From positions 1,476,485-1,540,484 of the forward strand of contig NC_134027.1 in the NCBI RefSeq assembly GCF_964204645.1: 64,000 nucleotides of DNA. Direction: 5' to 3'. The translations under genes and the position numbers were made by a program. The notes under the pieces are model-generated. The model searched no databases. It worked only from the letters and a program-made list of their open reading frames with translations, and was not told the origin of the DNA. This document shows, piece by piece, positions 1,001-51,284 of the stretch; within the stretch, counting starts at the first letter, position 1; each line of letters begins with the position of its first letter. Source of the DNA: Tubulanus polymorphus (Eukaryota; Nemertea; Palaeonemertea; Tubulaniformes; Tubulanidae).

Positions 1001-1086
1001 CTGGATCTAGGTCTGATATGAATATAATCTTTTAGACGGCGCTGGGCTGTACCTGTCGTACTGCACGCGTGTGTTTCTAGAAGCAT
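1001..1086 (-). CDS. Possible short alternative first exon (28 codons, phase-2 donor)
   Basis: On the minus strand an ATG at 1086 opens 28 codons (beginning MLLETHACSTTG) that end at a good donor, CCAG then GTAAGC, after the second base of a codon. An in-frame TAA lies two codons upstream of the ATG. The donor phase is the same as in the other candidate first exons further right, which is the main reason to list it. The peptide is short and resembles nothing I know, so a chance open frame is quite possible. Confidence 0.3.
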
Positions 1087-3875
1087 TACTTAATTATTCT
1101 CAGCGATTGACGACGAAATGATGAAAATATTCCTCACGAAAACTCATTGATTCCTCCAAAAACTGCATGTGAACTCAAATTAATGGCATAGATATATTCG
1201 CATTCTTAAACCGCTGAGCGGCTACAATCTGTTAAATGACACAGTCTCGTCCTGACAATAATCCTTATCAGAGACAAACTATTTTTAGAAATTCAAAGAA
1301 TCCTCGAGTTGTTACTCATAAATCTCTTCTGGAACGCGCTTAAATTGTTTAGCGAGACGAACTAAAAACTTATATCGGCGCTGTGTACGATAACTTTCGA
1401 AATCCTTTTTAGAAAGTTTCGTTTGAATTTCACCGAATTGTTTAATAATTCGAGATGAATCAAACACATTATAACTTTACAATCGACTCGATTCACACAC
1501 AATTAAACTTTACGTATCAGCAAAAATTAATTCCTTTCGAAAATTTCTCGAAATCGTTCGTTATTTATTATTGAAATACGTCGTGGAAAATAATCCGTTT
1601 TGAAAGTCTTTACGCGTCGTTTAGTAATCGGTGAAAATGATCCGTTAAGATGAACACCGTAACGTGGTCGAGATGATTACAAATAATCCGTTTTGAGAAA
1701 AATTAATCCGAGGATTAACGAGAATGAGTTAATTACAACTTCACATCATTTACAACAGCGAGTTGAGAGGATTGAAGCGTTATTCTCAATGAGGACGAGA
1801 GAGAGAGAGAGAGAGAGAGAACAGACAGACACACTGATCTGAACTGCAGTACTCCTGTATACGCTCAGTGGTGGCGGCACTGACTACTGACGACGACCAA
1901 TAACCAGTCAATACACTGTAGCATATATCTAAACGTCATCTATCTCGAGAAAAAAAAAATCTATCGCATCAGATTTACGAAATCACTTCTGCGAAACGAC
2001 CGAGCATTTCTCAGCTAGCTTCTTTAAAACGTTACGCTTGTCGGATATTACTAATTTGACATTTTCTGCACGGGCCTAAATTGATCAAGCGCTATTTTTA
2101 GAAATTCGATAGTATTTCAAGGATTTTAGGAGAGAGAAAAGAATTGAACGCTACATCTAACAGATACAGTGTATATAAATCATCAAACACAGGCCAGTAA
2201 TACCGCCCTTCTCTAAATTCCATTCCAGAGAGGATTTTAAAATCTAATTTTTGTTTAAGTGCCGCAAGGGACTCGCAATTAAAAATCGCAATAACCTTTT
2301 TTTAAAATCGGACACAAATTCTACGAATTTAACTTGAAACGACTAAAAATAGAACAATCAGTATTTGAAATATGATCTATTGTGATGAGAGACTGAAATA
2401 GATGAATGGGGGAAAGATAGGTAGATCATAGATAGGTAGATCATAGGTGTGGCTAGAAATGATCAGTTTAGAATCTATTTCTGCTTTTAACCTTGTTTAA
2501 TCAAATGTCGCCGTTTGATTCAGGCGTAAACAACCTAAAAATCAACCTTTAAAAAGATGCCCACCCTAAATTCAAAGGAAACCTACAACGCTGCTGCGGC
2601 AATAGAGGATTCCACTTATCAGGATCCACTAGGAGGCAATGGTCATTACTTGGTCACGTTCAATTTCTTCCACATTTCAGTTAAAATTGAATAAACTTTC
2701 CACACTAGCGCCACCTAATTGATACTCAATTACTAGTTAGGCAGACTTCACACTAGCGACACCAAGTGGATTCTTAGTTAACTAAACTAACCTTGCAGCC
2801 ACATAGGACCGGTAGGTTATTATTTTTAAATCACAGTATCGAAAAGTTTGCCAATGATTTGTATTGATGCGAATAAAATATGATGTTGGGAGAATCATTT
2901 GTGCAGTGAATTCTCAGAAGAATTTCTCCCCGTCTGTTGACGTGATTCTGATTGAGTAATGATCAGTGTTGTATGAATGCTAGTTAACTCTCTGATTACT
3001 GGTTCTAATCATTTGTCTGGTAATCATTAAAAACAGCACGAAACTAGGTTCTATATAATTACACTTTACTGTGAATCTCTCCCAGGGGTCGCTTGAAGAT
3101 CAGTCTAATCTAAATACCAAATTTGAGACCGTTTTTGGAGTTAGTCTCAGGGTCAACAGGGTCTAAGTTAAATTTTTGGTTTAGTTGCTCATTCATATTT
3201 TTGATAAGTTCTTCATGAAATATTTTAGCGTTTTAAAGTTTTTATTGTTTCACAAAATTCTCAAACTTCAGTTTTAAGCTATGAATTATAATTCTATAAC
3301 AGTTTATGAAGTTGTTGCCAAATCTTTGATCTTTTATCTTCCGTTTTATCTTGAACACTTTGTATAAACTTCGAAAAACTATCATAAATACGAAATCAAT
3401 GTTTACCGGCAAAAGAATTTGGATGCAGTATAAGTGAACTATTCTCACACTACTGACTGACTGACTGTGTTTACTGTTTACTGTAAACTGGGAAAATACC
3501 TGATAAAAACGTCGTGAATGAAGCAAAACATGTTAAAAATGAAAACTGTTGTATTTAGATCTAACAGAGATTCTAAACCGTGATACGAAGCTCTCAGCAT
3601 CAATCCTTGTTTTATGGATACCGCAAAGTTTCTCAGTCAATGGTTTTTCAGGTCTCTCACCACCTACCTATACATTAGACATTAATGGTTTAGAAACGTT
3701 GCGACAAATGGAATTTTATGTTGCCAATTATTCTAATGAAGCTATCTTCCTCCTGACTAAACTATAGCAGGTCCTACAAAAATCTGCAAAAGTCTAGTTG
3801 ACTTCAACTCCTAGATTCCCAGCTAGCACGCAATCTAGTGCGCCCTTGTAACTGTAGAGGGCGCTTCTCTCTTAC
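1087..3875. other. Gene-less stretch between candidate first exons
   Basis: AT-rich, with a GA dinucleotide run near 1797-1820 and short direct repeats near 2410-2450. Stops are frequent in all frames and I found no conserved protein. It may hold promoters or 5' UTRs of the neighbouring alternative first exons, but no site can be named from sequence alone. Confidence 0.45.
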
Positions 3876-4054
3876 CTTTGAACGCTGATTCGAGGTTCGT
3901 CTTGTTTACGTCCTCGTATCCGCGAAGATGATTTCTGTTGTTGATGATGACATCGGAATTTCATAAAATCCGGCGAAACGTAATTACACAAACGAGAACC
4001 AACGGCGTAATACGTTAACGAACGAAGATATATTCTATCCATTAACACGGCCAT
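3876..4054 (-). CDS. Candidate alternative first exon (MAVLMDRIYLRS... isoform)
   Basis: The open frame starts at ATG 4054 on the minus strand and runs about 59 codons (MAVLMDRIYLRSLTYYAV...) to a donor, CAAAG then GTAAGAG, in phase 2. The C-terminal part is basic and polar, with a short glutamine run and Arg/Lys-rich stretches (RIRGRKQDEPR). No domain is recognised, and the frame continues upstream only through a GTG. Its shared donor phase with the exons at 6911, 12126, 15101, 16943 and 25076 suggests all are spliced to one common downstream exon beyond the left edge. The product is not identified. Confidence 0.5.
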
Positions 4055-6910
4055 ATCTGAGTCCGAGACAAAACAATGCACTTCTTTTACCTCAAACCTT
4101 CTATTTTAGCGGCACAGGCTTCAAATTTACAAAAGCCTCTTTTCAATGAATCAAGATCTACATCTCAGCTAGAAATTCAGAAACATCATCCTTCTTCAAA
4201 CAGTCCAATATTTCAACAATAAATCTTCATATATCGTCTTCAAAAGATTCCTCTTATTTCGATATCATAAACTCTCTCCTTATATCCTTGAAAAACTGTT
4301 CTATATCAGCGCAGAAATGTCATCGACAGCCCCGAACCAACGCTCAACATCTCTCAATGATTCCACTGTTTCACATTTCACAAAGCTTCGCGAAAAGATT
4401 ATCAAAAATACATAACGAAACCCTGAAGAGTGTTTAACCGCGCGCAGCACAGAGGTAACCTTGTTGCTTTATCAAAGAGCTTCTCATCATTTCATAACCG
4501 TAGTAACCGCATCCGACATCTCTCTAACATCCTCGCAGCTGATCCTCATCCAGTACTCGGCCTTGATAGCGAAAAAAATCCTCTCGGGCGAAAAAATATC
4601 GGACAACAAGTTGTAGGATTAATGAAAGCGCTAATTGTGCGATTAAGAGTGTAAAGATACCCGCATGTACTGAGACGATGTTAACTCTTAACTACCAATC
4701 TGTTTTACACTCACTCCTCTGATAAATATAACTATCTACTCGATATATACCACCACCGACCCTGTTCTACCACTGCTGCGGCTGCTGTTACTAAACGGTA
4801 TTTCAGAAACTAAATTAATACTTCAGTTTCTGCTCAGTTTATCGGTAGGCAAAAATAACTCGAATATTTGTCGGACATTTTGACTCACTTTTCTCGGAAG
4901 AAGGAAAGATTTCAACAATTTTCATGGTACGAAACCTTGGCCGATTTATTAGTTTAAACCGACTGATTGCAAGACTCCATAGTTTTTCATTAAGTTTGAA
5001 TAAATTGAGTTCAAATTTCTTCATTTCCGACGTCTAAAAATGGTCCTTAACCCGAAGAAATGTATGAAATGAGCTAATACAGATCTATCTTATCACGAGT
5101 CCGGTACAGAACTAGAATCTGATTGAAGTTTAGATGCACTTCCAACTCTCTGTCTCTCGAGGAGGCAAGCGATGCGTAGAAAAATTAATGACAGGATGTT
5201 GCAGATGCAAGTGATAATCAGGATGAGAGATACAGATGTGAAGGTCAATAGGGATGAGAGTGAAGGTCAACAAACCAATTAAACAAGTTATAACAGCATT
5301 GAAAGCTTTGACAAATAATCAACTACTGAAACTGAAGAGGAATCCAGTTCCACCGAATGCAGTTCTTAAGCGAGATATAGTTCTACGGCGGAATCCACTT
5401 CCACTGTGGATTGCAGTTCCACAGGATATAGTTCTACAGCGGAATGCAGTCTGACCATGGATTGCAGTTCCACAGGGGGATATAGTTACACAGCTATCCT
5501 TTACAAAAAATTTAAGTATTGAATCATTGAAAAAATGAAAGCTAATCAGATGTGACTGATGCCAGCTACAGGGACAAGCTTTGCGACCATCAATTCATAG
5601 TGAGTTAATGTGGTTCACACTGTAATAAAACTCTCAACTGATGCGGAGTCACGGTTGACTTCCCAACGGTCGCGGAGACCGTTAAAAATAAACCCTCATC
5701 ATCCAATACAGAGATACAAACATTCTATACTCACGATTCCCAACTTCTTCGGTAATAATTCAATAAAATGTAAATTTTCTTGGCGACCGACACTTTTGTC
5801 TCCATGCCAACAACTGAGATGATTCAAAAATGAATTATCAATGAATTGAACCGTTGCGGAGGCAGGCTGCTGCGGCAAGTGAGGGCGATGAGCGGAGATA
5901 TCAACATCGAAATCACTAGAGTCTTTGTGTTCGAAGCAGAGGAAAGAGTGTGAGAGAGGAGAGTCAGAAAAATGTAAATTAATCATAAAATAACAAGAAA
6001 TTCTTATCAATTAACTGAAGGAGGGGTGAGAGGGGTGCGAGGAGATGTTGAAATGATGCTGTAATTGGTACCGAAATAATTCTTCAATACAAAGAATGGA
6101 AATCATGAGCAATTATACAAAATACAAGAAGCTGATGTCAGTGCTACGAGCTTTCATCATATGAGCTTAGAAGGTTTGACCGTACAACTGTGAACACCAG
6201 GACCCAGTTGCATACTCGAGACTTAACTCCAATTTGGTATTATATTACTAGTCTTGCATTGTTAGATTGTCTATAACTAAGATGGTCTTAGACTAGTCTT
6301 ATACCAAATCTGTAACTGGCCCGAGCAGTACGAGTCTTAGATTTGAATCTAAGTTCATTCTTATTTTGTAGACAATCTAACCAGTCTAGGACTGGTACCT
6401 CTAGCACTAATGACTTCCTATAATAATAAATCTAATGAAAGATTCCGAAATAAAGACCGTTTTTATACGATTATTGAATAATATTTTCTGTAGCCAATAA
6501 CAACGACCGCATCTCGCTTCAATGATAGAAAGTATTATCAGAAATCAATACATCATTAGTAAACTCCACGATGACCTCGACATATCGATACAGTCAGTCA
6601 GTGTGTACTGCATTACACGAAGCACTTATACGCCATCTATCAGCAAACTGCGTCACTAACAAAGTACATCAAGATATCGATAACATTTCCTATAATTCTC
6701 TGAGGCAGAAGTTATTGATATCGATTATCTTAAATTCAGTAACAGGACTCCATGACTCTAGAGTCCTGGGCCCAGTTCCACAGTTGTGAGTTGGTGTTAA
6801 CTCTGAGTTAAAGTTAGTTCATTTTCAATGAGTTAACTCAGAGTTAAATCTTATCTCAGAACTGTGGAACTGGACCCTGTATGATAAACACCTAGATTCA
6901 GGTTTCTTAC
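4055..6910. other. Gene-less stretch with short repeats
   Basis: It contains a degenerate short repeat near 5330-5480 built on GTTCCAC and ATATAGTTCTAC motifs. It also holds a foldback-like element near 6190-6320 with CAGGACCCAGTTGCATAC at one end and TGTAACTGGCCC at the other. No supported exon was found. Confidence 0.45.
6772..6880. mobile_element. Small foldback element (MITE-like)
   Basis: The left end GGCCCAGTTCCACAGTT is mirrored by AACTGTGGAACTGGACC at the right end. The interior is also palindromic, with GTTAACTCTGAGTTAA against TTAACTCAGAGTTAA. Pieces of the same end motif (TGTGGAACTGG) recur all over the window, for example near 29.76, 37.62, 42.88 and 63.15-63.38 kb. This fits a high-copy non-autonomous foldback family. 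Confidence 0.65.
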
Positions 6911-7381
6911 CTGTAAAACTGTGATGTATAAGTTGCATTACGTCCTTGTGTACGACTAATATAGGTATTAAATGTACTACGATAAAATCCCGTTTTACTG
7001 AAACCAGGTTTAACTATGCCTTGTTTAGAGTGGATGGGACTTCTTAAACCGGGTCTGGATGGGTCAGTTCTATGTAGTAGTCCCGGTTTCCTACGAGATA
7101 AACCCTGATTAAACAGTCTCGGTTTTAATGGATGAGTTTTCCCTAGCTCCGGTTTATTCAATCGATTCGATGATCCGAGTTTAAGTAATCCCGGTTCGGA
7201 TCTATTTAACCACGGTTTATAATGTCGTAAAGCTACGTATTTAGTGGTTTTATAAACGGGTTGCGGGATCAGAGTCGGACGGAACACGGTCTGCGACCGG
7301 TACAACGTACCGCGATAAACCGGCACCGGGATCAACGACGCTCGGAACTTTAATCCAGACTCAGCTCCACGTCCGCCGCCC

Positions 7382-7455
<74 letters not shown>

Positions 7456-7704
7456 CGACACGAACAGGTCGTCTTTAGCGTACGCACATTCTGGAAGCGC
7501 CACCGGTTTCGATTTAGTCGAGAAATGAAAACTGCGACGTTCATCCGTCTGTCGGTTAAAATCCAAACATTCGCTAACAACTCGTCGACGCCATTGTTTA
7601 CCTCCTCCTCCTCTTCCTCCTCCTCCTCCTCCTCCTCTTCTTCTTCCTCCTCCGTCGCTGTGCCGTAATTTCACCGCTGACGATGACAGTTTTTCACACG
7701 TCAT
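6911..7704 (-). CDS. Candidate alternative first exon with polyglutamine and Gly/Arg-rich segments
   Basis: The minus-strand ATG at 7704 opens 264 codons ending at TTTACAG then GTAAG, phase 2. In order the peptide shows an N-terminal Gly/Arg-rich segment (residues about 18-40), a run of about 23 glutamines encoded by pure CAG (7384-7452), a second Gly/Arg patch, then a basic region rich in Pro, Tyr and Lys. That last region carries repeated motifs of the form IPxPVYR/K and KPGL/KPGF. No folded domain is evident and it looks intrinsically disordered. It is far larger than the other candidate first exons. It probably encodes the unique N-terminus of one isoform of a gene continuing to the left. 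The gene is not identified. Confidence 0.6.
7384..7452 (-). repeat. Uninterrupted (CAG)23 coding for polyglutamine
   Basis: Twenty-three perfect CTG units on the plus strand, read as CAG on the coding strand, inside the exon at 6911-7704. There are no CAA interruptions. Confidence 0.95.
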
Positions 7705-10700
7705 TTTGTCGAAACGAGGAGGAAATATTGTTTATAACGCGTTTAAATGTACATAGAGATATAGAGACAGACAGACACAGTGCCTGGGATATACATAATC
7801 TAATCTCAAATTCACCGCCGCTAAAAAAAGTTAAACACCGACAACAAATTCACAATCTGCTGCATCAAAAACCAGAGTCGAGAGTCAGGAACTGAGAATC
7901 ACTGTTGACAAATAAAAGTCCTTCCTCAATCTCTCTATGCTATGTATATAATAATGTACCGTACAACAGGCTCTAGTAGGAAAGAGTCTCATTGACCTAT
8001 TTACATTTGTTTATAGCTTTTTATCAAATTTGTTTCCAAATATGGTTTCTGTGTTAAGAGCTTCATATTATGTATGTTGACGTTTTATGCAACTGTCAAA
8101 ACCAGTGATAAGATAGCAGCGCGGCTGTTTAATAGTTGACAAGTTTAAAGAGTACAGTAAAAAATCTATATTAGCTCCAACACTGCAGTTGTTTATTTCC
8201 AAAACGTGTTCGCGCTGTCCAATGGAACTGAACAAATCTGTCCGTGTAAATTCCAAAAAATGTCCTTTTTGAAATGAAAACCGAAATGATCCATTTGTTG
8301 AAACCGGTGAACAATTTGAATTTTTTTTTAGATATTCCCTCATTTTGTAAATGATACAAATAAAGCTGAAATGTTGCTTTCCATTTTCACTGCATTTATA
8401 AACGCATAAAATGTTATAGTTCAGAAATAATGCGTCCTTTCTTTTGAAATATTCCTAAACATGAATGAAACGGCACACGGTGTCAGTCAGTAGTGAGGAG
8501 TGAATGAGAATTCATTCTGTTACTCAGTTTTAGTAACTCGTGAGTGATAAGAAAGAGAGGGTATTATTCCTATTGATTAAGAATGATTCACTGAGTTTCC
8601 TCGCGTGTCCTCGCAGTGACACTCGCAGCACGACACAATAAAGATGATGATAGTTGCAGCAACAGATGTTTATAAAACTGATGAGTCACCGAGTGACATC
8701 GCGAGACAGATTGTTTCTGATCCCGCTGCTGAAAACATCCGCACAAACTTCATTCATCATCGACAGAAATCATTATTCAATTCATACTTCAATCTATCCG
8801 AGCAATCCCTGAGCAATTCCTCATCTACGGAATTTAGCTAGAGGAGGATGCAGCAAATGTTTGTCTGCCTCTCCTCATAGATGCTCAACAAACTGACCCA
8901 ACGGTTATTGTTCCTCCGCTATTGCAAGTAGATTCAATTTTTTCTGAACTTAAATACCCAGAACGAAACCCGACAGTTCTAGTCCAGTTACACAGTTCCC
9001 AAATTGTGTTAATCCTCAAGTGTTAGATAGTAGAAAGCGGCGCAAGCAGCGGTCTATCTGAGTAAAGTTTTATGGATGATTTGAAGATTGTCTGATCTCA
9101 CACACTAGTAGTAACTGCGAGAGTAGAGTAAGAGATTGTGTGAGCAGCTGAGAATGGATTGAATATCTATCAGGTGCAATATTGAGTAATAGTGTAAAAC
9201 AATACCAGCTCTTTTGGGTTTCATAGGCTGCGTCTGAAATTCTACGATTCATTTTCAAAAGTTTTGAAAATGGCTCGTAGAATTAAGAAGTTTCCAGTTT
9301 CTAGGCGCCATTTTGTGGTCTCTCGAGGTCCCCATTGTTGCGATGATTTGCGCTCATTTTCAAAACATAAGTTTAGATTGAATATCATATAGTTCTGCAG
9401 CCCCTTGCTCGACGAAATCAATTTATACACCATTTTAAAGGAAATGAAATGCAGATATTTGCTGGCGATTCTTGGAACTTTTGTACGCAACAATTGATAA
9501 CAGTGACGATGTGAAACCAAGGACCGCATATCTTAACCGCCCGTAAAAGAAACCACAATATCTATTAATTTTGAAATATCTAAGTATCTCTTGAAGCTAT
9601 ATTTCCAATTCTTTATTAGCACGGAATGTCACTCTTAGCGTATATGATGATATAGTGGGTTCTCCTTCAAATTAAGTTCTACTTTCTAATTCAAAAACTA
9701 ATCTTCATCTCTATGGTTTAAGCCGTAGACATGCGGGCCGTCACGTAGAAACCTTTAAAACCGTATCGTCACTGAGTGAAGAGATCGAGTAAAGACACTG
9801 CCGTATGTGGAGTGCTACATTTTAATGCACTTAAATCTAGATAGTTAAACCGGACGTTGCGTCTCAAGTCTAGACCCTGAGACTAGTATTTAGTTGTTTA
9901 AGAGCTAAGCCTTGACATGCCCTGAATGATGATGTCATCGGGTTTGAATACCTGATGAGGTAGAATGATACATCGGGTTCCAATGCTGTCTGGTGAAGAT
10001 GAACCCAGACACTTAATATATAGCAACATCATTACACACATAATCTTATCACATCTAACAAAAACAGACAATGAAAATAAAACATCATATTAAATATAAG
10101 AAGCACCAACAAAAGTTACATCCAGCCATTTCAGTAAGATAGATACAAAAAAGACGGAATCCATAATTAAAAAGCCATTTTCTAACAGGAGATAAAATAT
10201 AAAATACCTGTTATTAGTGACAGTAAATCTGACCATTATTCTAAAGATTAGAGTGGCGTGATAGAGATAGTAGTCATCGCGCTGATAGTCACCGGTGTCG
10301 CGAGTAGCTGCTGCTGCCGGTACCCAGACACCAGAGACTGCTGCTGCTGCTGCTGCTGCTGCCTGCTTCACATATAATAAATACACACATTGATTGCTAC
10401 TAGACACTTACGTCAGAATATAAATCAGTCTCGATGTTAATGAGAAATAACAACACAGACCACACAGGACACCTCATACAAGACTGACTGACCACTGAGT
10501 GACCATTACCTCACCGGCCTCACCGACCTCACCGACCCCTGATGAATTCAAAAATCATTTGAAGCTTGTCATCACTGGATTAACATATTCTATAGTTTGA
10601 GTTCCCAGCACTGGTCTAGGTGTCATACTTTGCTAAGCCATAGTCTATTATCAACTGCAGAACTGGGCTCAAATTCTAATAAAGGAAATGAACATTTTGC

Positions 10701-12125
10701 TTCCTCTTCTTCTCGATGATTAACATTGTATTTTTTTGTAAAAAAATCAACTTCAAAAGTCAGAGAATTCAGAAAGGTCATTTCTTAAGCATGAAACTGA
10801 AAGGAAACATTTCCTATGTTGATGGTTCAGTAACTTTACCAAATCTATATAAGTTTATAAGAGTAAGAGTCCTACTGCTGACAGACTGCAGACCAAAGCT
10901 CTGATCGATGAAGCAAATAAATAGCTGCTTACATTACGGTATATTAAAACAAGCCTCAATCAAAATACTACACGCGTATATTATGGTTATATGATGAAAA
11001 GGTGATTAAATTCTTAGAAAACGTTGTAGTAAGATTCCGCGCAAATATGACGACGAGCATTCCGAGAATCCTCATCAAACATTGGCTTGTTTTGAATGTT
11101 AGTTGATCTGTCTGCTAGTAGATGGCAGCACTGACTAGCAGATGTCGGGATTGATCTGTAATGAGTTCCGTGATAGCTGCTTATCAAATCTTTATACGAG
11201 CAAATGATCTGAATAAATCATTTGACCTAAATAAATCATTTGACAGGTAACCTTAAATCAATCTTGAACAGGACAGGAGAAATTTAACAGAAATGATATT
11301 TCCCTGACCCTTGAACAAAAATTCCCTGATTAAGTTATGAGATATCCTCACTGGGAACTATTTCTTCAGAGGAAGTTTTTATGCCACACATCACCAGCAA
11401 GAACAACTAGACACCAAAAATTCAAATTCTTTGATTTTCTAGGAAAAATATTCAGAATTCCTTGATAAATTTTGACTTGAAGGAACCCTGGGATAAGAGT
11501 AGGTGAATGGTTTTAGTGCAACAAGGGACTAATGTAAAAAGAGGGTCCAGAATCCAGAACCCTGCTCTTTAGGAGATACAACTAATGCAAGAAAAAATTT
11601 CATGCAATCCCCTGAGCTTCAACCCCTTTATAGTCCTGACCTGACATAGGCCCTCCTATGAGCTAGTGTAAAAGCAATCTGGATTGGTCAGTCAGCTCTA
11701 GTCTCTGATTGGTCAACATGAAGTGGTCTGCTAACCCTAGGGTTATTGTGATTGGCTTATCCTAGGTATCCACAGTGACCTAGTAGTCTGCTAGGGTTAC
11801 TGTGATTGGCTGACCCTAGTAGCTTGTCACTGATTGGTGAGTGACTGAATATTGAGCTCTTAAGACACAATACTTCAAACAGCCAGTTGTAAAGAGCTAA
11901 TTGAGGGCCCCATTCAACATTCAAACAGTTCATGTGGGCTGCTATTCTAAATGTATTCAACTTATGAATACTTTATATATGCTGATATGTATTCTAAATT
12001 CTATATATGTGAAGTTATTTCACTTCTAATTGAATAAAATCTTTAAATCGAAATGTGATTGGACTTAATCACTGTTACTGGTCCCAGTAGATGAAACCGA
12101 CCCTGGCAAGCTATTCTTCACTTAC
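7705..12125. other. Gene-less stretch
   Basis: No supported exon. It holds a short CTG/CAG run near 10335-10363, a degenerate piece of the GGTTAGG satellite family near 11.66-11.85 kb, and AT-rich sequence elsewhere. A strong-looking minus-strand donor (CTGAC then GTAAGT, near 10408-10414) has no ATG in a matching frame. It could end a non-coding 5' exon. Confidence 0.45.
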
Positions 12126-12364
12126 TCTTTGAAAGATGCTCTCGCGATAATAATCTCTTCTACCGATGATCTATCATCATCATCATCATCATCATCTTCA
12201 TCGCTTGTATCCTCATCGTCCTCGTCATCGCAAACGTCCGGTCCGCCGTGGGCAGTAGAAACGCCCGGAGTCGGTACGTGGAGCACGGTACCTCGCGAGG
12301 CTACGCGCCCGCGGGCTAACGGACAAATCACCCGGCGAACACTCGAATATAAACAACTCCACAT
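12126..12364 (-). CDS. Candidate alternative first exon with poly-aspartate tail
   Basis: ATG 12364 on the minus strand opens 79 codons (MWSCLYSSVRRVICPLAR...) ending at TTTCAAAGA then GTAAGTG, phase 2. An in-frame stop lies upstream with no intervening ATG. The N-terminal third is basic with several cysteines. The C-terminal half is strongly acidic, with an Asp/Glu-rich stretch that includes eight consecutive Asp encoded by a GAT repeat. It is locally GC-rich (about 12230-12320) against AT-rich flanks, as a promoter-proximal exon might be. No known domain; same phase as the other candidate first exons. Confidence 0.55.
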
Positions 12365-15100
12365 CAGCTCCTCATTCAGCAGCAAGTTCTCTAACACTAT
12401 ATAATATTCATATTAAATAGCTGCAGAATATAACGGACGACGTAATTTCAGCATTTAAACTACAAAACAGCAGGTGAAGAGAGAGAGTCGTATACATACA
12501 CACAGTGAACAGATACCAGACTGTCTATATCCTCAACACACTGAAACCAGGTCAAAATCAAACTGTCATTTTTTCCTTTTTCCTTCTTAGCGTCGATTGT
12601 TTTTTCATCGTAGAGAAACTATTTCAAGACGATGAATCTAAAAGTTTCACCGCGGGTCACACGTGCATGCGCTGACATACTGAACCGGGTCTGGTATCCG
12701 AACCAATCCAACCCAGTTACTGCGAGACCAAAATGTCCGAGTTGTAAAACTGTAAACCTGTCCATGGTCCCAGGTAATAATGAATTAACGGTTAACATTT
12801 ACATATATATGATCGCGGACCGTCACGTCTCTCAGTATACAGAGAGGAAGGATTCATTCGTGTAGATTGTTTTTGAGAAACAGCACCTGGTCTCAACTAC
12901 ACTACACAGTCTATAATATACGCAATACTGTAGCACCAGGAGAGCTAGTTCGCAGCAGTAGTACATATAGGTACGATTTCATTGAACCATGAGAACCGCG
13001 ATGTTCAATCAGTCGTTTTACAAGCTGACCTCGCTTTAAATCCCGTGCAGTCAATCGCATAATCCTGTGGACATTTATATTTTTCGAATCATGATGTGAT
13101 ATTAATATTAGAACTGATCAGTTAAACAATGGTTTTAATTTGATACATCCACGGCGCACATCGAGGTCCGATGGCGCGCAACGCGGTCCGATTGATAAAA
13201 TCGATTTATTCCCCTCTCGAGACTGACTGGAACTGTTATACAGACACGTCCGTATATTCCACCTGTTTCACTGGTAAAGCATTCACAGACTGTTCACAAA
13301 CAAACCTAAAAAATCACCTCAACTCGTTCTCAACGTTCCGACGCAGCTAATTATTGATTTTTAATGATTTATTCTATGTATCGTTCAGCTCATATTTCAT
13401 TGAAACCTCTCACAACACTGGACGCCATAATTAATAACTCGACATCAGCTTCAACGCTAAACTAACCAAATCAAAAACATTTATCACTATGAAAACTATC
13501 AGTCTCGTAATAGAGATCAAATCATACTTCGATAATGATAAACACAGTCACAATAACCAGATATCAACTAATAACAGAACTATAATCCAGTGGTCTATAG
13601 TAGAGAATACTGATGATACTCCTTAATCCATCAACTACTATTAGTAGTAGCTACTTGATATGAGGAATTCTGAAAAACTTGAAATATCCAGTAGACTTTG
13701 ACCATACAGATCCAAGCAGAAGATCTAGCTGTATTCATCAGAGTCTGTACTGGTACAGTACTGTATCCTACTCTATACCAGGTATATCTTCATCGTGTTG
13801 ATTCTTTATACAAAATCACCTTCATAACTCGTCCACCTCGCATTCTATACTTATAACACTCTAGTTATTCAATCCATCTCAACTTCTCACACGCAGAAAC
13901 TCGCACCTGTAGCTGTTCTGCTAAAATGTATTCACGCATTTTTGGTTTTTGATTTTTTTACAGCCCAATACCTGGTTTCTAAATCCTAGAGTTTAAATCT
14001 TTGAGTTAGCAATTTTCTAAGAAGATTTTTTCACACATTGCATTCAAATACACTCAACTTCACTAGTACGGTCCATATGTCAATACCTCGAAGTATCTGA
14101 CTGGCGTTCTCTTCTGCTGTGTAATAAATGTGCATTTCATGCAAACTCTCAGATAAAACTTCGAAGACATCTTCCAAGGTAAATAGCTTCAAGTTTAGAA
14201 GCTCTACAGGGATGCGTGCGTTCTCCTGACTCTAGATCTTACTAATCCCAGAATGTATAGAATTCTACTGCAAACATCTGTTTTAGTAATTAGTTCTCTA
14301 CTGCACCTGTGACTACCAGATTTTTTTCTCTAAATTGCATACGATATTTAAAATACTAAATTCATCAAATCTGCGCTCGTGCAATTCTAAACTCAACACG
14401 ATATCAAATTTTTTTTTCTAAACCTGTAACTAGAATTTTTTTTCTAACTCGAATTTTTTATTATCAGAGAATGCTGAACAGTATTAGACAGTCAAACTCC
14501 TGGGGCCGGTTGCATAGTCATGGCTTAGGCTTAAGACTAGTCTAAGGCCAACTTTGTTCTATAGCCAATCTAACAACTTAAGAACAATCTTAAGATTTAA
14601 GACCACTTTTGGACTTAAGTCACGACTGTGCAACTGGCCCCTGAGCTTCTGTCACAGAAACAAAGTGGGCGCCCCAACCCCGTAGTTAACCTACGTACCG
14701 CCGGGTTAACCAATACCTCAGACATCACTTATAATATACCACCAACCACTCATCACCTCTTCTCATATTCAAAACAAACCGATGTTTACTTCAAAAACGA
14801 CGATTTTTCCTTAGAAAAATATCCATCATCTCGAGTTAAAAGATACACATGATATGAATAGTCATTACTTAAAAATCGTCTTAAGCTGAAAACCGAAAAT
14901 TTGTAGTTTGTAATAGAATTTTCAATGTCCTTAAATCTTTCAGCTTTTGATAGAGGGAAAATATGTAGTTTCAAATAAATTTTGCAATGTCCTTAATATT
15001 CTGCTTTTTCTAATCGTGGGTTCTGTATATTCTAGTGTTTATTTGTAGAATATACTGAATTCTACCGGTTTAAAATATAAAATCCAACAATAAAACTCAC
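12365..15100. other. Gene-less stretch
   Basis: AT-rich with no supported gene. A foldback element lies at about 14503-14642: GGGGCCGGTTGCATAGTCATG at the left mirrors CACGACTGTGCAACTGGCCCC at the right, with TTAAGACTAGTCTAAG and related motifs inside. It belongs to the same family as the elements at 29778-30542 and 33674-33812. Confidence 0.5.
14503..14642. mobile_element. Foldback MITE, GGCCGGTTGCATAGTCATGG-ended family
   Basis: Terminal inverted repeats pair GGCCGGTTGCATAGTCATG with GACTGTGCAACTGGCCC, with several internal copies of CTTAAG and GGTCTTA-like motifs. Related copies lie at 29778-30542 (interrupted) and 33674-33812. Degenerate ones are near 6190-6320, 44290-44460 and 60055-60125. 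Confidence 0.7.
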
Positions 15101-15537
15101 CACGGAACTAATATATCGTTGTAACCGAGGTAACATTCATCGGCGAATTCAAACGAATCTTCAAACGCTTCGTTAACGAAACCCTCGGAAACATTCTCGA
15201 CCCGAACGTCCTCGGTAAATTCACAAATCGCTTCTTCAAATACGTCGATCTCGTCGAGGACCGCCGTTTCGAAATCACAGCCGTCGTCATCGGTTACGAC
15301 GAAATCATTTCCATAGAATTCCGGAACGATTTCGTAATCGCGACTGGTCGCGTCGCTGTGGGTCGCATCGGAGACGCAGGTCACGAGTGGAGCCTCATCC
15401 GATACGGTCCAGTTCTCGTCTCCGGACTCGGACGTCGGGTAGAGCAGCGCTGCCGGGTTTAAAAACCGTCGCAACGCGTGAGCCGTACATAATACACAGT
15501 TACACCAGAACGATCGAATAAACCGAACGAGGAACAT
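15101..15537 (-). CDS. Candidate alternative first exon (acidic, MFLVRFIRSFWCN... isoform)
   Basis: The minus-strand ATG at 15537 opens 145 codons to a donor TTCCGTG then GTGAGT, phase 2. The start is hydrophobic and basic with cysteines (MFLVRFIRSFWCNCVLC), which might attach to membrane or be acylated. The rest is strongly acidic, with many Glu, Asp, Phe and Val in motifs like FEDSFEFADE. No family is recognised. Codon use is coherent (many CG-ending codons unlike the AT-rich flanks), which supports real coding sequence. It shares donor phase with the neighbouring candidate exons and probably joins the same off-window body. Confidence 0.6.
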
Positions 15538-16942
15538 TGTCTTCTGTTGACTCCGGTGACAACAGGGGTAGGTTTACTGGGAATCACAGCGATACCACTG
15601 CTTATATATATATATATATATACAGCACCTCGGATAATTCTTAATTACAGCAGAATACACAGTAATTAAACCATCATCATTCATTAACCTACACACGCAC
15701 TGTACCACCACCAGTGAGTGCTGCTGTAAAACCTGTTGAATACAGCTACATTTTCGCAGATAAACATCAAACAAAGGCTGAAAACCTATAACTGAGTCAA
15801 AAGAGCTGACGTGAGGTCATAACGATAAAAATCGAAACTTAATCCAGTCGCATCTAAAACGACGCGAAGCCGCAATAAACATCTCACAGTCTCAGTATAA
15901 TATAAATCTGTTCACTCGTGGTTCGACCATCTCAATTATCTCTTAATCCGTTTATATCCGATAACTATCCACAACTCGCGAAATTTAGAAAAATATCGTT
16001 CAAACCGTTCGAAGTTCGAGAAAACGATTTTAAAATCCGTTGTTGATCGTGAAACGTTGCGTGCGCCCGTGCGCCCGCGTGCGTGTGTGTGTGGGTATAG
16101 TGAAGTACGATGTGCTGCAGCGAATTAAACCTACGCCACAACAACAACAAGAGAGGAATCGACTACAGAAACATCTCTCACTGAGCGAGAATGAGAGAGA
16201 GAGAGGTCTCTGATCTTAAAGTCAAATTCACCTCTACAACAAACCTGTTAAACAATATATACTACAGATCTGCATATGCATAATATATAGATATTTATAA
16301 GAGCTGTTTATTATTAACTGCACAGGTTTGTTGTATGTATATATATATATATGTAGGGTAACTGTGCCACTATAGGTTACCCTACCACACTCAGCCCTGT
16401 ACTGCCGCTATTATGTTGTCAAACAAAAATTAATTACCGATTCCGCGTAATCTGAAATCATAATAATTGTCAATGACGCGTGCTCCAAGAAGGCCTGCGT
16501 AAAGTGAATTCAGAAAAGAGAACACCTGACTGTCAGTAAACCGACGAGTTTCACCGCAGATAAAGGCCTATCAGTCATACACGCGTTCAATCAATGATTA
16601 TTGCTTTTTCTAAATAATGACAGGATTTGAATTGAAAAATGGTTGATATTCAGAAACGCAAGCTGTCTCCGCCCGGCGAGTGAGGTCACCAGCACCAGTA
16701 CAAAATCTTATCAATATGATTTACAATTAAAATTAACCCTTTCCATTCGAGGTCTAAAAACAATTTATAGATACTTAAAACAAGGTTTAACTATGTAAGC
16801 AAAATTAATGGTAAATGCGCACATTTATCACATGTATACGTTAACATGTACATGTAACAAACATGAACATGTTACAGGTAACAAACATGAACATGTTACA
16901 GGTAACAAACATGAACATGTTACAGATGCTGCTGTCTCTTAC
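15538..16942. other. Gene-less stretch with microsatellites
   Basis: TA dinucleotide runs near 15603-15621 and 16338-16352, a GTGTGTG run near 16081-16092, and a 26-bp unit containing AACATGAACATGTTACAGGT repeated about three times near 16855-16925. No supported exon. Confidence 0.5.
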
Positions 16943-17118
16943 CTCTTAGGTCTATCTGATGTCTGTTTACTACCGGACTGACGACTGAGCCCGCCGGCGG
17001 CCCGACTGACACCGCCCGCGGCCGGGCGAACGTGGGCAGGCCCTCGGGCTCGATGCGGCCGACGGAATATCCCTTTCAGATAGAAATAACAACGCAATTT
17101 TCGCGCCACTTTTTTCAT
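16943..17118 (-). CDS. Candidate alternative first exon (basic, MKKVARKLRCYFYLKG... isoform)
   Basis: ATG 17118 on the minus strand opens 58 codons ending at CCTAAGAG then GTAAGAG, phase 2, with an in-frame TGA four codons upstream of the ATG. The peptide is very basic (start MKKVARKLRCYFYLKGIFRR) and then Ala/Gly/Arg-rich, ending SDRPK. The exon is GC-rich (about 16985-17060) in an AT-rich setting. It is below 60 codons and easily missed. It resembles no family I know, but it shares the donor phase of the other candidates. Confidence 0.5.
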
Positions 17119-19169
17119 AGTTTTAGCTCAGAACGTACGTTTCTTCGTCCGAACGGGTTTTTATATCCTCGCAATCGTATTTGTGTTGATAAACCCGCGG
17201 CACGGCTACAACCCGGAGGGGAACAGAGACTGACGACATACTGGATGCATATTTCAGTCACGCATCAACGTCCAACGCAGAACGCTCTACAACAACATCA
17301 CAAACTGATGACAAACATCGCAAGTAACTCACGTACTTTAAAAACCTGAATCTGAAGTTCCGATCGTTTCTAGTTTTGGTCATGGACAAAACATGAACAC
17401 AGTTTATTGAAAGTTCACAGCCCAGGCAGCGGTAAACTTATATAAATCCAGAACAATGGTCATATACAGGACACGCGGTTGACGCTCATATAGTTTTTAC
17501 TGATTGACACACTTTCAGACAATCTGTCGATACGGGAAACGCTTCAGAAGAGACTTCACTGTCTCAAGCAAGCCTATCTGCACTCCTTAATGTGATGGCT
17601 CATTTACACCGTCATATCCTGGTGACAGCTAGTTTAACTGTCATTACGTAAACTGTCATATCCTAATGACAGCGAAAAACTGTCCATATCTGACAGTGAT
17701 AAAACCTAGCGTATAAACGGCATCATAAACATCCCTTACTTGATGATGTTGAAATGTCACATGTTCAAACATCAGCAGCGGCAGCAGCAGCAGCAGAGTT
17801 TACCATCATATCACGCAATGAACGACCGAGTGAATTAAACAAACTGGCTCTAATTACAGTAAAACAGTATGAAAGACGTCACACGACGACAACCAGTGAA
17901 CAGAAAGAGAGAGAGAGAGAGGAATTTAATTATCCAACGCAACTTGTATCATAACCAAAAACAAATCAATTCCACACTACTACAGCTTCCGCAGATAGCT
18001 ACCAGATAGCTAACAGCCCCGAGACAGAGCTACTGGATCGGTGAAGAAATGAGAGCTATCGAACTACACAGCTACCTGTCGACTACCAGTGATGAGACAC
18101 GCTAACTCCCAGTAAGGAGACATGATAGCAGCTACCAGTCAGTCAGAAGAGAATTTAACACTTCATACCATAGCATACAACGATGAGAAGACATCGATGG
18201 GTTTAGAGTTACACACACCGGACACCTCTCACCGGACTACACTCAAACACCTCTTACAACATCAATAGATTATTCATATTGTCTCTAATGATAATCCAGT
18301 GTCTTACAGGTTTCAATATCAGATGCGATGTTCAATATCCGTCGAGTAATCAGGTTTACCACCGGGGTACGACGAGAGTAGAGAACTCCCATTTACCATC
18401 GCGGTATAATGGGGGTCCGTTTCATAGTTCTCAATATAGATTACGCTTAAATCAATTCTGAACTCGTGACTGCAGAACTGGTCCCCGAAATTCCATATCG
18501 ACACAACTAGATACAGTTCACTGTCATTACCCCAACGAGACACAGTTTACTATAACTGTAAAATTCTGCTAAATCTCGAAATGATATGCCTCGAGTTATA
18601 ATGAAGAATTGATTAAACTCAATTCTTGATTCAACTCAGTCTGATATCGCGCGATAAGTCACGTTAAAACCGATAATTTTTTAAAAGTCATCGCGAGCGA
18701 GTAGTGAACGTTATGACGCGACGAGAGTAAAGTCATCGTAAACTCTGTGAGGAAGAAATAATTGATTTTTCACTGTCTGTTATCAGCACGTCTCGTCCTG
18801 CACCGAGTCGTTATTTCTAACCCTCACAAGAATTCAGTATACACATGAAGTTTAACCCTCGTCTAACCACATACTTTAAAGACTCGAACACAACGCGAAT
18901 AAGAATCGAGAGAATGTCGCGTAGTTGTGACCGCTCCCAAAAACCATTAGTATCATTGACTGACGTCAACGCTACAAATTACACTGATCAAAACTAAAAC
19001 GACTGTGAGTGAGAGAGAGAGCTGCGACTGGTGATCAGATCAGATCACGCGCTGCACCGGAGAGAGGTAAACACACATAACCACCACCGTCATAGCTGTA
19101 TACATAGTTTATACCCATACATCAAACAACCCCCCCCCCACAAAACAATTACTATAAATCATTCAGATT

Positions 19170-19322
19170 CACAGAGACTGAGAGGGAGAGAGAGAGGGAG
19201 GTGTGAGGGGAAGGGGGAAGAGAGGGAGATAGAGGAGCGAGCAGAGAGAGCAGAGAGGGAGATAGGAGAGAGGGAGATAGGAGAGAGCAGAGAGAGAGGG
19301 AGAGAGGAGAGAGAAAGGAGAG
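19170..19322. repeat. GA-rich simple sequence
   Basis: An imperfect purine run of GAGAGA, GGGAGA and GAGCAGA blocks on the plus strand. Open frames across it are low-complexity artefacts. Confidence 0.85.
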
Positions 19323-19468
19323 TTCTATGAAAATCCCATCAAATCCCACAATGCGAATATAAAACACTGGCACGCTGTCCAAAAATCCCAACAAATTCCG
19401 GGGAATTAGGAACTCTTTCTTCTTGGGTATTGAAGTTTTACTCAAATGACATCATTTCCAATGATTAC

Positions 19469-19712
19469 TGATACTCGGGTCCTGATGATACCCGGGTCCT
19501 GATGATACCCGGATCCTGATGATACCCGGATCCTGATGATACCCGGATCCTGATGATACCCGGATCCTGATGACACCCGGATCCTGATGATACAAAGATC
19601 CTGATGATACCCGGGTCCTGATGATACCCGGATCCTGATGATACCCGGGTCCTGATGATACCCGGATCCTGATGATACCCGGATCCTGATGATAACTGGG
19701 TCCTGATGATAC
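19469..19712. repeat. 17-bp minisatellite, about 14 copies
   Basis: The unit is CCTGATGATACCCGGRT, with a few variants such as GATACAAAGAT and GATAACTGGGT. It reads open on the minus strand because of the repeat, not because of a gene. Confidence 0.9.
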
Positions 19713-22551
19713 CAGTAACAGCAGATTTCAATTCAACCAGTAATTACCGAATATATGAAACGTGGTGTTAAGGCACACATCAGTATCACCCACTAACACC
19801 TGCGCACACCTGCTCCAGTCTCATTGTTTAATCAATTTACAGATATCCATTTGAAGATTAAAATGCTACTGAATTTGTCAATGATCCGATCTAGTCGCCA
19901 TCAGCTGCTGCCGGAATTACCTTCTTCAACTGAATTAAGCGTCTAGCTAAATCGACTAGATATTGACTGCATCCACCCTCTCTCTATCTCTCTCTCTCTA
20001 TCCTGATAACATTATTGAAGTAAGCATCTAATCCTGAGCGAGACCGGTCGATACCTGTCTATACTAGAGCCAACTAGTATCCCGTCTTAGCAACAACAAC
20101 CTAAACTCATTCATTCCCAAAAAAAAAAACCATTGAAAACTGAATGTCAATTTTTTAGAAACCAAATGTCGAACACTATTAGCTAGTTTAGCCCCTGTTT
20201 TGATGAATTCTCTTCCAAGGCCTACGGTATATGATGAAGCCTAGTCAGTCTCTATATACCACCAACTGTGCTCTAAGATAAATTCATTTTCATTATCAAT
20301 ATTTTTATCTCGTCGCGACGACCTATAGATGGCGTGTTAGCATGATGGGTATTATCAAATTCACTTTTACAGCTACTGCTCACAATAATAATCGCACAAA
20401 CGTCACTAGAGTTTTCCACGGCATGAAGATAATATTGCAATTAGGTTTTTTATGGAATAATAATAGCGAGTGGACACGATGCAGTCTGATCGGTCAATTT
20501 ATCTCACGGAAATCATCTATTTCCGGAGGTGGACCTCGACGTAAATCATACAAAAATATCGCATATACATCATCATGTCATCGTGAAAGGGAGGGAGAGA
20601 TGAAGGGAGAGATGGGGGAGAGATGGGGGGAGAGATGGCACGAAAGAAATAGAACGTAATGTCATCAGATCATGGCTCAATAATGAACTATGATTAACCA
20701 GTTCACTGTACACCACACGCTACCCTAATCACAGATACGACTAGAATTCAAATAACTACGTTTTAAGAGATTTGATCGATCGGATTCAGACCACATCAAC
20801 CCTTTAAACCCTATTCAATTATTAAACTGACACAACTGTGGAAAAACTGGGTCCAGATTCAAAATAAACCCCGCACAACTTCGGAACTGGATTCAGAGAA
20901 CTGTGTATTCAGAGAACTGTGGATTTAGAGTCATTCTACTACAGTGGAACCCGGGATTTAAAGGGTTAACAGTAATCAAAGTAAAACCCGCTGTCATTTT
21001 TCTCAGCGCGCACAGTGAAACCTGCTGCTGCTGCTGCTGCTGTCATCGCTGGTAACTTTACATCTATTCTTGCACATTACACAGCGACAGACTATCTTTT
21101 TGCATGCGTCATTGCCATTATACATGGGAAGAGAGAGAGAGAGAGTAGAGGAGAGAGTAAAGAGGAGAGAGGAATGGCAAACAGTCACGAATACTGGTTA
21201 AAAAACCAAAAGCTTTTATGCTGCTAGATAATGAGGTCCAGTCTTTTTGATGGAGTAGAAAAGACAATAATTTTCACGTATGAAAATAAAAACCAACACT
21301 TAAAAAGAGACTCGGCCAAAACCATTGAATCGACTAAAATCTAGACACGAGATTCAATGTTCATATATCGATGTCAAGATGAGGAGAATACCGCTTTCAA
21401 AAAATGTTCGATCGAAAATGAATGAACTGAATGTTTGACAATTAGAGATGAGACGAGAATGTGATGAATTAGATGAGAATTTATCGGATTCACACAGTTT
21501 GATTGATTGATGACCCGTGCAGAGATGGATGTGATTTCAGGTTGAATTTGACCAAACTAAATCATCAGCCACAGCATCAAAACAGTGCTGCCACCTGATA
21601 ATAAACTACTAAACTATCATTCAACATAATGATAGTTCTATGATTGATTATGTATGTGCTTATAGTCAATGATGCAATTGTCCATATATTTGTAATAGGA
21701 CCGTTCTCCATTAGGGGATCACTTGGAAACCCAGGTACTGTGGCCCTATAATAGCACAAGAAAAGTATCCACTACTATGCATCAGATACAGATAAATCCT
21801 GCTTTATCGTCGCTTCACAAGGGTTTGAATCCATCATCTGGTAAGTTTAGTCAAACAGTCAGTCAGTCGATCTGAATCATTGTTGAAATTCATTTTTTTT
21901 TTCATTACAAAGTGTTAGATAGATACAAGGTAATGGAATAAACATGTATCGACTAAACTACAAGTGAACATCACCACAAACAGGCCCCTTCTTCAATCCC
22001 CCGACCTACACTAACATTCTTCACAAGTCTAAACTATAACTCAATAATGTACTTTCTACATGAATACCGCAATCATGAAATTTTCAGGAATGCCTTTTAA
22101 AAAAGTCTCATTTTTACCTATTATAGGCTGGCTAATGCTGGTAGTGTAGGATAGCTGGCACCAGCCGAGCAGAAAACTGATTCACTAACTACCCATAATT
22201 TGACTAGTTGTACATATAGAAATAAAGACTATGAAATCCAGCGAAGCAAAAACTCTCAAGGCCCTATAGTGATAACCCAATAGGTAATGCTAATTCATTT
22301 TCAATTCTGTAGAAATTCTCAAAAATTTGTATTTTCATCATGTAAAATTACAGAAAAAGCAAGCAGTGTAGACTACAGCGCATACTGAGAATAACTCATC
22401 ATCTTCACTCAACGCTTAGAATTCAATATCTCTGATCAAATATGAGACAGATATTTGTTGAGAAAAATAACACCGCGTGTATTCTTCATGTGTAGCAGAA
22501 TAATTCATATCTCAGTCTACGCAAATACAAATTTGAGGCTGATAATCGCGC

Positions 22552-23197
22552 CTCAACACATGGACTATCCGATAGATCGGGCCCCAACACATGGACTATC
22601 CGATAGATCGGGCCTCAACACATGGACTATCCGATAGATCGGGCCCCAACACATGGACTATCCGATAGATCGGGCCCCAACACATGGACTATCCGATAGA
22701 TCGGGCCTCAACACATGGACTATCCGATAGATCGGGCCTCAACACATGGACTATCCGATAGATCGGGCCTCAACACATGGACTATCCGATAGATCGGGCC
22801 CCAACACATGGACTATCCGATAGATCGGGCCTCAACACATGGACTATCCGATAGATCGGGCCCCAACACATGGACTATCCGATAGATCGGGGCCCAACAC
22901 ATGGACTATCCGATAGATCGGGCCCCAACACATGGACTATCCGATAGATCGGGCCCCAACACATGGACTATCCGATAGATCGGGCCCAAACACATGGACT
23001 ATCCGATAGATCGGGCCCCAACACATGGACTATCCGATAGATCGGGCCCCAACACATGGACTATCCGATAGATCGGGCCCCAACACATGGACTATCCGAT
23101 AGATCGGGCCCCAACACATGGACTATCCGATAGATCGGGCCCAAACACATGGACTATCCGATAGATCGGGCCCAAACACATGGACTATCCGATAGTT
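22552..23197. repeat. 31-bp minisatellite, about 21 copies
   Basis: The unit begins ACACATGGACTATCCGATAG and continues ATCGGGCCYCA. Copies differ mostly at one or two bases after GGGCC. Each unit contains the short palindrome CCGATAGATCGG. Unit spacing is constant and there are no spacers, so this is a satellite array and not a CRISPR. Confidence 0.95.
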
Positions 23198-24431
23198 GAT
23201 GACAAACTGTGAACAGCAGTAAATCTCACTTTCAATCAGTAATATATGACACAATTATACGTCTTACATTCACGTGAATTTCCCAATAGAACAATAACAC
23301 AGAAAAACTGATAATAATAATACAGCAGCCCGAATAGAGAACGTTTTGTTGTTGAAGAAATGATGAGAATTTATCATTTCCTTGAAAAATAATATAAAGA
23401 TATTAATGAGTCTCGTGACAGACAGATAGAGCTCAGTTTCATTCTCATCACATCTGTTCATTTCATCAATCCATCAATTAATGAATAATGGTTGAAAAAC
23501 GAGGCGTGTTAATAATATTCATATCACTCTATCAGACCTATAGACTTTATATATATATATAGTGTGATAACATATCAATGAATCATCTATTCCTGCTGAC
23601 CTGGGGAGAAGTGACACCCGAACACAAGGCTAAACAACTGCTTTCCTAAACTGACAATAAAAACAGACATAAGAAGTGGCAATTTTTTGAAACGATAATT
23701 CGCCGTAACCTCGATCTATTGGAGAATTTTCAAACGAGATTAAATGTGTACTTTTATCGGTAACCATTTATTCTAGTATATGTTTTGTTTGCCCGTTTGC
23801 TTTATCTGCGGTTTTTTCCCTACATGAAACGCTTCCTCTGAGCATTATAAGGATTGAAATGCTTTATGTTTTATAAAATGAAGTTAATGGTAAAACCCTA
23901 CCCGGTATTCAGGACAGGGTTCAGGACAGGGTTCCGTCATCTCAATTACTTCAACTGGATTGAAGAGTCTCTACGAATTGGTCATTCCTGGTTATAAGTA
24001 GTTGTTTTCAGGGGAGAAATCCTCAAATTTCAAGGAAGTGTCTGCATCACTTTCGTGTCTAATTTACTTTAGACTACTTCCCAAATCATCGGTACCGCTT
24101 ATCTAGGTAAACTGATAATTCAGTGGTTTTGTAAGGAATTTATAATTTTGAAAACACAACAGGGTGAATTGTTCATCTATCAAAATAGATACAGACAACA
24201 AAAATATCTCGAAGTGTGAAATTCCCAAACGAGATTCAACTATTTACTTGAAATTAGTCTAGTTTCTAAATTGTTAACAGGTTAAAATAACAGTGAAATC
24301 TTCAAACAGTTTGCACCATCAGTGCCGCCCGTTGATACAGAGAACATGTTTTCATTTATAAAACAGTTGATGAAAACAGTGTTTATCACAAATAGTTTTA
24401 GAACACAAATAGAAATTTCAACCTTAGTAGT

Positions 24432-24575
24432 ACTGTGCTGTGCTGTACTTCAAACACCTTATAACAGTAGCCACAGTGGTACTGTGCTGTACTTCAAACA
24501 CCTTATAACAGTAGCCACAGTGGTACTGTGCTGTACTTCAAACACCTTATAACAGTAGCCACAGTGGTACTGTAA
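24432..24575. repeat. 44-bp tandem repeat, three copies
   Basis: The unit starts TACTGTGCTGTACTTCAAAC and continues with ACCTTATAACAGTAGCCACAGTGG. The last copy is diverged. Confidence 0.9.
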
Positions 24576-25075
24576 TGTATTTCAAACACACTTTCATTCA
24601 TTCAACAAAACCCATATAGCACAACAGAACCCTCTGTTCCATAGCATCAATTGTTTAATTCGGAACAATGGAACCCGGTTCTACATCTAACATTCAAGGT
24701 TTTTCGTCGGTTAGATTACCTTTCCCGAGATAAAAAAACAAAAATTTCAACCCTACCACTGGTATTCAACTCAAATACTGGTATTCTTTGAAACAGACCC
24801 TGTAGTACTATCATGGATGGTTGATGTCGCAGATTCCTCAGTTGCAAATGATTTAAATTTATTGTGTGTTACATTTATGAATCTTTCATCTAACTTCATT
24901 TTCAAAACATTTTCCAGATATTTATGAAGAATGCCAAGCATTGGTCCACCACCATCCAGTGTGAGTGAGTGAGTCTGGAGTGATGAAAATCTTCGACTGC
25001 ATCAATATCAATCTTCTCAATCGAAGCCAAATAAAATAAAGCTCTCTAAATGAATGTTGTTCAGTTGATATTTAC

Positions 25076-25330
25076 CTCTGAGGTCTCTCTGGGTGTTTTT
25101 TATCGTTGTTAGATGACGATCCTGATATGTTATTACTGTTAGGTTTAGATTCGGCAGCGGCTTGTCGTATTTTCCCAGCTCGATTCGCCTTCAATCTGCG
25201 CTGTTTTCGGGCCTGAATCGCTAAAACTGAAACACAAAAATATCCAATTCACCTGCTCCAATAATCCGCTTAATCGTCTCTTATCGAAATCGTCGGATTT
25301 GACGAGAAATTTACCTTTTTTCGAACTCAT
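25076..25330 (-). CDS. Candidate alternative 5' end in two coding exons (MSSKKVLAIQARKQRRL...)
   Basis: Exon 1 (25315-25330) is ATG plus 13 nt ending at AAAAAAG then GTAAAT. Exon 2 (25076-25226) follows a good acceptor, TTGTGTTTCAG. Joined, they stay in frame and give MSSKKVLAIQARKQRRLKAN, then a basic stretch and a Ser/Asn-rich tail ending HPERPQ, to a donor CAGAG then GTAAAT in phase 2. The phase equals that of the other candidate first exons, so this is likely the most distal start of the same gene. The basic helix-like start is suggestive but no family can be named. SF3B3 begins its 3' end only about 1 kb to the right, on the same strand. Confidence 0.6.

Positions 25331-45508: not shown

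Positions 45509-51284
<5,776 letters not shown>

Follow-up and report, generated by a model that had tools for sequence, protein, structure and literature searches.

Seven ATG-initiated exons lie on the minus strand between positions 1001 and 25330 of the window, by which we mean the whole 64,000-nucleotide stretch of Tubulanus polymorphus DNA that was analyzed (C3:1476485-1540484 of a 267.8-Mb genome), and the question that they raise is which gene they serve. Donors of the same phase on unrelated open reading frames (ORFs) can betray a shared gene body beyond the window. A preliminary description of this DNA had proposed a single gene with its body to the left, and examination of 50 kb of the left flank bore this out, as the flank holds minus-strand exons of an SRPK kinase. 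The interval from 1001 to 25330 is very probably the 5' region of this SRPK gene, in which at least six alternative ATG-bearing terminal exons are joined to one common exon.

SRPK gene body and common acceptor

Kinase exons were found on the minus strand near C3:1459.3k, 1457.5k, 1452.1k, 1445.5k, and 1444.7k. Judged by a comparison of E values, the kinase domain that they encode is of the SRPK type, with CLK and DYRK more distant: the kinase exons through ...FFNKKG gave 8e-50 against SRPK2 and 9e-46 against SRPK1 versus 7e-11 against CLK/DYRK, and the reconstructed N-terminus gave 4e-48 against SRPK2 and 2e-46 against SRPK1. The first common SRPK exon (C3:1467779-1467670, minus strand; window -8705 to -8814) begins with GTCTGAACC at a distance of 8.7 kb from the left edge of the window and leads into the kinase lobe. 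Its second half aligns with a segment of SRPK1, and both the conserved acidic lead-in and the N-terminal lobe are present. Spacer-like exons, one reading SKNKKKKLKKKLKRQQELLEKQ... (L011:2508-2711) and one polar (L011:1174-1635), lie between the DIKPEN and ADLGNACW exons; recognized as individual exons, they may belong to a long spacer of the kind that divides the bipartite SRPK kinase domain. No second SRPK was found in the genome, where the remaining matches were weaker; the best of these, at C3:192266, was rejected as a second SRPK because it reads as a DYRK-type kinase. Long tandem arrays that are open in several frames also occur in the SRPK introns (L010:4082-5099, L010:7937-8922, and L011:4199-4715).

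The common exon is entered at TATATTTTCAG/G TCT GAA CCT (TTTTCAG/G), which supplies one base to a split codon, and conserved SRPK sequence is read from this exon only if the preceding exon contributes two bases to the frame. Several ATG-bearing 5' exons are phase-compatible with this one acceptor. The first base of such an acceptor had been predicted to complete codons of the AGx type. When this check was run, G fitted and all seven exons read on without a stop, AG plus G giving Arg in five exons, GA plus G giving Glu in the exon at 12126, and TG plus G giving Trp in the exon at 15101.

Seven minus-strand exons and their products

All seven donors were found where the preliminary description had placed them, in one phase and with each ORF leaving two bases. 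Coding exon 1 of canonical SRPK (25315..25330, minus strand) reads ATG AGT TCG AAA AAA G/GTAAAT, encodes MSSKK, and leaves one base. Exon 2 of the canonical isoform (25076..25226, minus strand; VLAIQARKQRR...) has the acceptor TTTCAG/TTTTAGCG and a donor, GAG/GTAAAT, which scored 3.7 bits with the generic metazoan matrix used for donor scoring and leaves two bases. Joined, the pair reads MSSKKVLAIQARKQRRLKANRAGK... and continues without a stop through to the common exon. We take its product, MSSKKVLAIQARK... or MSSKK-VLAIQARKQRRLKANRAGK..., to match the conserved start of vertebrate SRPK1 and SRPK2, a region that PDB constructs lack; a literature search for the SRPK N-terminal peptide found none. 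Given this presumed resemblance, the interval would be the 5' region of SRPK, and the other candidates, all of them to the left (downstream) of the canonical start, would sit inside the 5' introns of SRPK itself. Their location there is the strongest argument for their being SRPK exons.

The remaining six exons are all on the minus strand with phase 2 donors, and the net charges of the front-end products span -27 to +35. Four alternative first exons are well supported. The longest ORF in the interval is that of exon 6911..7704 (264 aa; donor CAG/GTAAGA, 7.2 bits), which encodes a basic product (net +35) with a 23-residue polyglutamine. The tract is coded by a CTG/CAG run at window 7381-7453, and CAG/CTG-rich stretches like it are present at dozens of sites genome-wide. 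Exon 15101..15537 (145 aa; donor GTG/GTGAGT, 5.8 bits) encodes a strongly acidic product (net -27) with a hydrophobic and Cys-rich start, MFLVRFIRSFWCNCVLC..., and exon 16943..17118 (58 aa; MKKVARKLRCYFYLKG...TSDRPK/AG; donor GAG/GTAAGA, 6.3 bits) encodes a strongly basic one (net +15). Exon 3876..4054 (59 aa, basic; MAVLMDRIYLRSLTYYAVG...RISVQ/AG; donor AAG/GTAAGA, 6.5 bits) was single-copy in a genome search, and for window 15101-17130 the genome holds short matches only, with no second full-length copy. Two probable alternative first exons are moderately supported. The exon at 1001..1086 (28 aa; MLLETHACSTTGTAQRRLKDYIHIRPRS/AG; donor CAG/GTAAGC) is short, and its donor, at 7.8 bits, scored highest of all seven. 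The exon at 12126..12364 (79 aa; MWSCLYSSVRRVICPLAR...DDDDDDDD...ARASFK/GA) encodes a poly-Asp product (net -12) and has a weaker donor, AGA/GTAAGT, which scored 2.4 bits despite a perfect GTAAGT because of the A at -1. Pfam searches with exons 6911, 12126, and 15101 gave no match above the cut-off, and pairwise comparison of the first exons detected no similarity beyond that of shuffled sequences when the 21 comparisons were allowed for.

Proposed interchangeable front ends and predicted promoters

SRPKs are held to be constitutively active and to be regulated largely by location. We propose that the gene is read leftwards and that each 5'-terminal exon would be spliced to the one common exon in the left flank, 8.7 kb away from the window, and all donors would then be of phase 2 because they must fit one phase 2 acceptor. 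One kinase would carry several front ends: the canonical basic MSSKKVLAIQARK, a polyglutamine-containing basic one, an acidic one with a Cys-rich start, one with poly-Asp, and a short basic type. The open frames of the six single exons were found to hold no acceptor of fitting phase; this speaks against reading them as cassette exons and argues for terminal ones. Each exon may have a promoter of its own, giving separate transcription starts. Alternative promoters are the most likely mechanism since each exon has its own ATG, the open frames hold no suitable acceptor, and the exons are spaced 2 to 8 kb apart.

UGT1A and the protocadherins have a row of tandem-duplicated first exons of one phase that are spliced to common exons, and the row described here likewise fits common exons in one phase. 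A tandem-duplicated cluster of that type was nevertheless rejected because the first exons here are not homologous to each other. Plectin has a dozen first exons, all joined to a single exon 2, which encode short isoform-specific N-termini (PMC8468861). Its layout of multiple variable first exons is the same as that seen here, although plectin is a cytolinker rather than a kinase and has no sequence relation to this gene. Multiple variable first exons are a known arrangement, and the T. polymorphus gene is of the same kind. Within the SRPK family, alternative promoters of Drosophila Srpk79D lead to two transcription and translation starts and place nonconserved N-termini on a shared kinase (PMC2759580). 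The two genes are alike in joining differing N-termini to a shared SRPK kinase; they differ in that Srpk79D has two starts whereas at least six N-terminal exons would serve the sole SRPK detected here. Human SRPK1a, a form of SRPK1 whose N-terminal domain is longer by 171 residues (PMC6624410), also shows N-terminal variation in an SRPK, but there it is an insertion through alternative splicing and there is one variant only. At least six N-termini on the only detected SRPK is more than we found described for the SRPK family. The N-terminus of Srpk79D decides whether the kinase is targeted to active zones or to perikarya (PMC2759580), and a targeting role is therefore the natural inference for the front ends here, which most likely direct the kinase to different cell compartments or tissues. 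If true, front-end swapping would show how one enzyme reaches different substrates, and alternative starts would here replace the paralogs found in vertebrates.

It is conceivable, though unlikely, that these are real SRPK exons used as alternative or mutually exclusive second exons that follow a common untranslated leader, or a small number of such leaders, a reading that opposes only the promoter step and not the exon structure. Acceptors upstream of the ATGs and outside the ORFs would allow such leaders, and no significant promoter signature was detected, as CpG upstream of the ATGs was not significantly raised. Against this, the exons are scattered across 24 kb, every one of them has an ATG and no fitting acceptor within its open frame, and the Srpk79D and plectin layouts have been described as alternative promoters or first exons (PMC2759580, PMC8468861).

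Phase agreement compared with chance

The preliminary description had put the probability of the phase agreement arising by chance at (1/3)^6. The agreement itself stands, but the figure overstated the independent evidence, as that description had itself said, and it is superseded because the enrichment over simulated sequence and the matching acceptor now carry the argument. We scanned window positions 1 to 25400 without selecting by phase, taking both strands, all three phases, and every donor above a fixed score. With a donor of at least 4 bits and an ATG-initiated ORF of at least 50 aa, there were four matches on the minus strand (3876, 6911, 15101, and 16943), all four of them in phase 2. 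When the ORF cut-off was lowered to 25 aa, the minus strand had five phase 2 matches, 1001 being added, along with one in phase 0 (at 25253, 26 aa) and one in phase 1 (at 4889, 45 aa, 4.1 bits), both at chance level. At this donor score, the plus strand of the same interval had no matches at either ORF cut-off. The exon at 12126 is absent from the scan solely because of the A at -1 of its donor.

These counts bear on whether genuine SRPK coding sequence is confined to the MSSKK pair, the other candidates being chance ORFs in a long first intron. In 300 runs of order-4 Markov simulated sequence, 0.16 phase 2 matches were expected at 50 aa or more, with a maximum of 2, compared with the four observed and none on the opposite strand; at 25 aa or more, 0.63 were expected, with a maximum of 3. 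ORFs that reach such a donor after at least 140 aa were absent from all simulated sequences, versus two observed (145 and 264 aa). For the exon at 1001, the chance expectation was 0.04 per 25 kb (donor of at least 7.5 bits, at least 25 aa, phase 2). Polyglutamine and poly-Asp tracts can lengthen ORFs through composition, which favors chance, as do the codon scores of the short exons, including 1001, which are uninformative, since so weak a bias cannot prove that they are coding. With 43 kb of the genome's coding sequence as the training set, codon-usage scoring barely separates frames here even for proven kinase exons; even so, the exon at 15101 scored above every intron sample, and that at 6911, without its polyglutamine, scored within the top 1% of intron samples. 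The phases also match an acceptor that was unseen when the exons were picked. Taken together, these results make chance ORFs a highly improbable explanation.

A long ORF before the common exon

A minus-strand ORF of 1,459 codons (C3:1468378-1472754; L009:1891-6270) lies left of the window and 0.6 kb before the common exon. It is unique in the genome, its middle is Lys/Glu-rich and coiled-coil-like, its end is His/Gln-rich, and a Pfam search with it gave no match above the cut-off. From its ATG, 1,451 codons are followed by two leftover bases at AAG/GTAGAA, and the junction with the common exon would read RLKR-SEPPRQ. This donor is weak (0.6 bits), and without its use the ORF would stop at a TAG that overlaps it. 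The ORF may supply SRPK with a further, giant N-terminus, or it may be a single-exon gene in its own right. Only tentatively do we suggest that a single SRPK gene owes its diversity to eight alternative N-termini, including a coiled-coil-like one of 1,451 residues, and not to paralogs of the vertebrate style. The reading that some of the exons are instead parts of different genes, lying on the minus strand within the SRPK intron and perhaps including one with the 1,459-codon ORF, finds some encouragement in the run of this ORF to its own stop past a weak possible donor but is very unlikely, given that the long ORF and the first exons are all in the phase that fits SRPK, that AATAAA and ATTAAA are absent from the 596 bases separating the long ORF from the common exon, that no other recognizable coding exon was found in between on the minus strand, and that the GT donor of a short exon requires a downstream acceptor, which the known one fits.

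Surroundings of the locus

Within the window, a tandem array with a 31-bp unit lies at 22421-23340, its copies about 97% identical in mid-array, and another with a 17-bp unit lies at 19418-19774, where the minus strand stays open with YHQDPGIIRIRVSSG-like repeats. The neighboring genes are on the plus strand and encode a dynamin-type GTPase (Dynamin_M, DRP1-like; 48450-48914), a CECR6/TMEM121 family protein (56574-57638), and a PUB plus UBX protein (UBXN6-like; 60129-61145). Rhodopsin-type receptors are numerous in this genome. The sign of the GC skew flips near 40 kb, roughly at the onset of the plus-strand genes.
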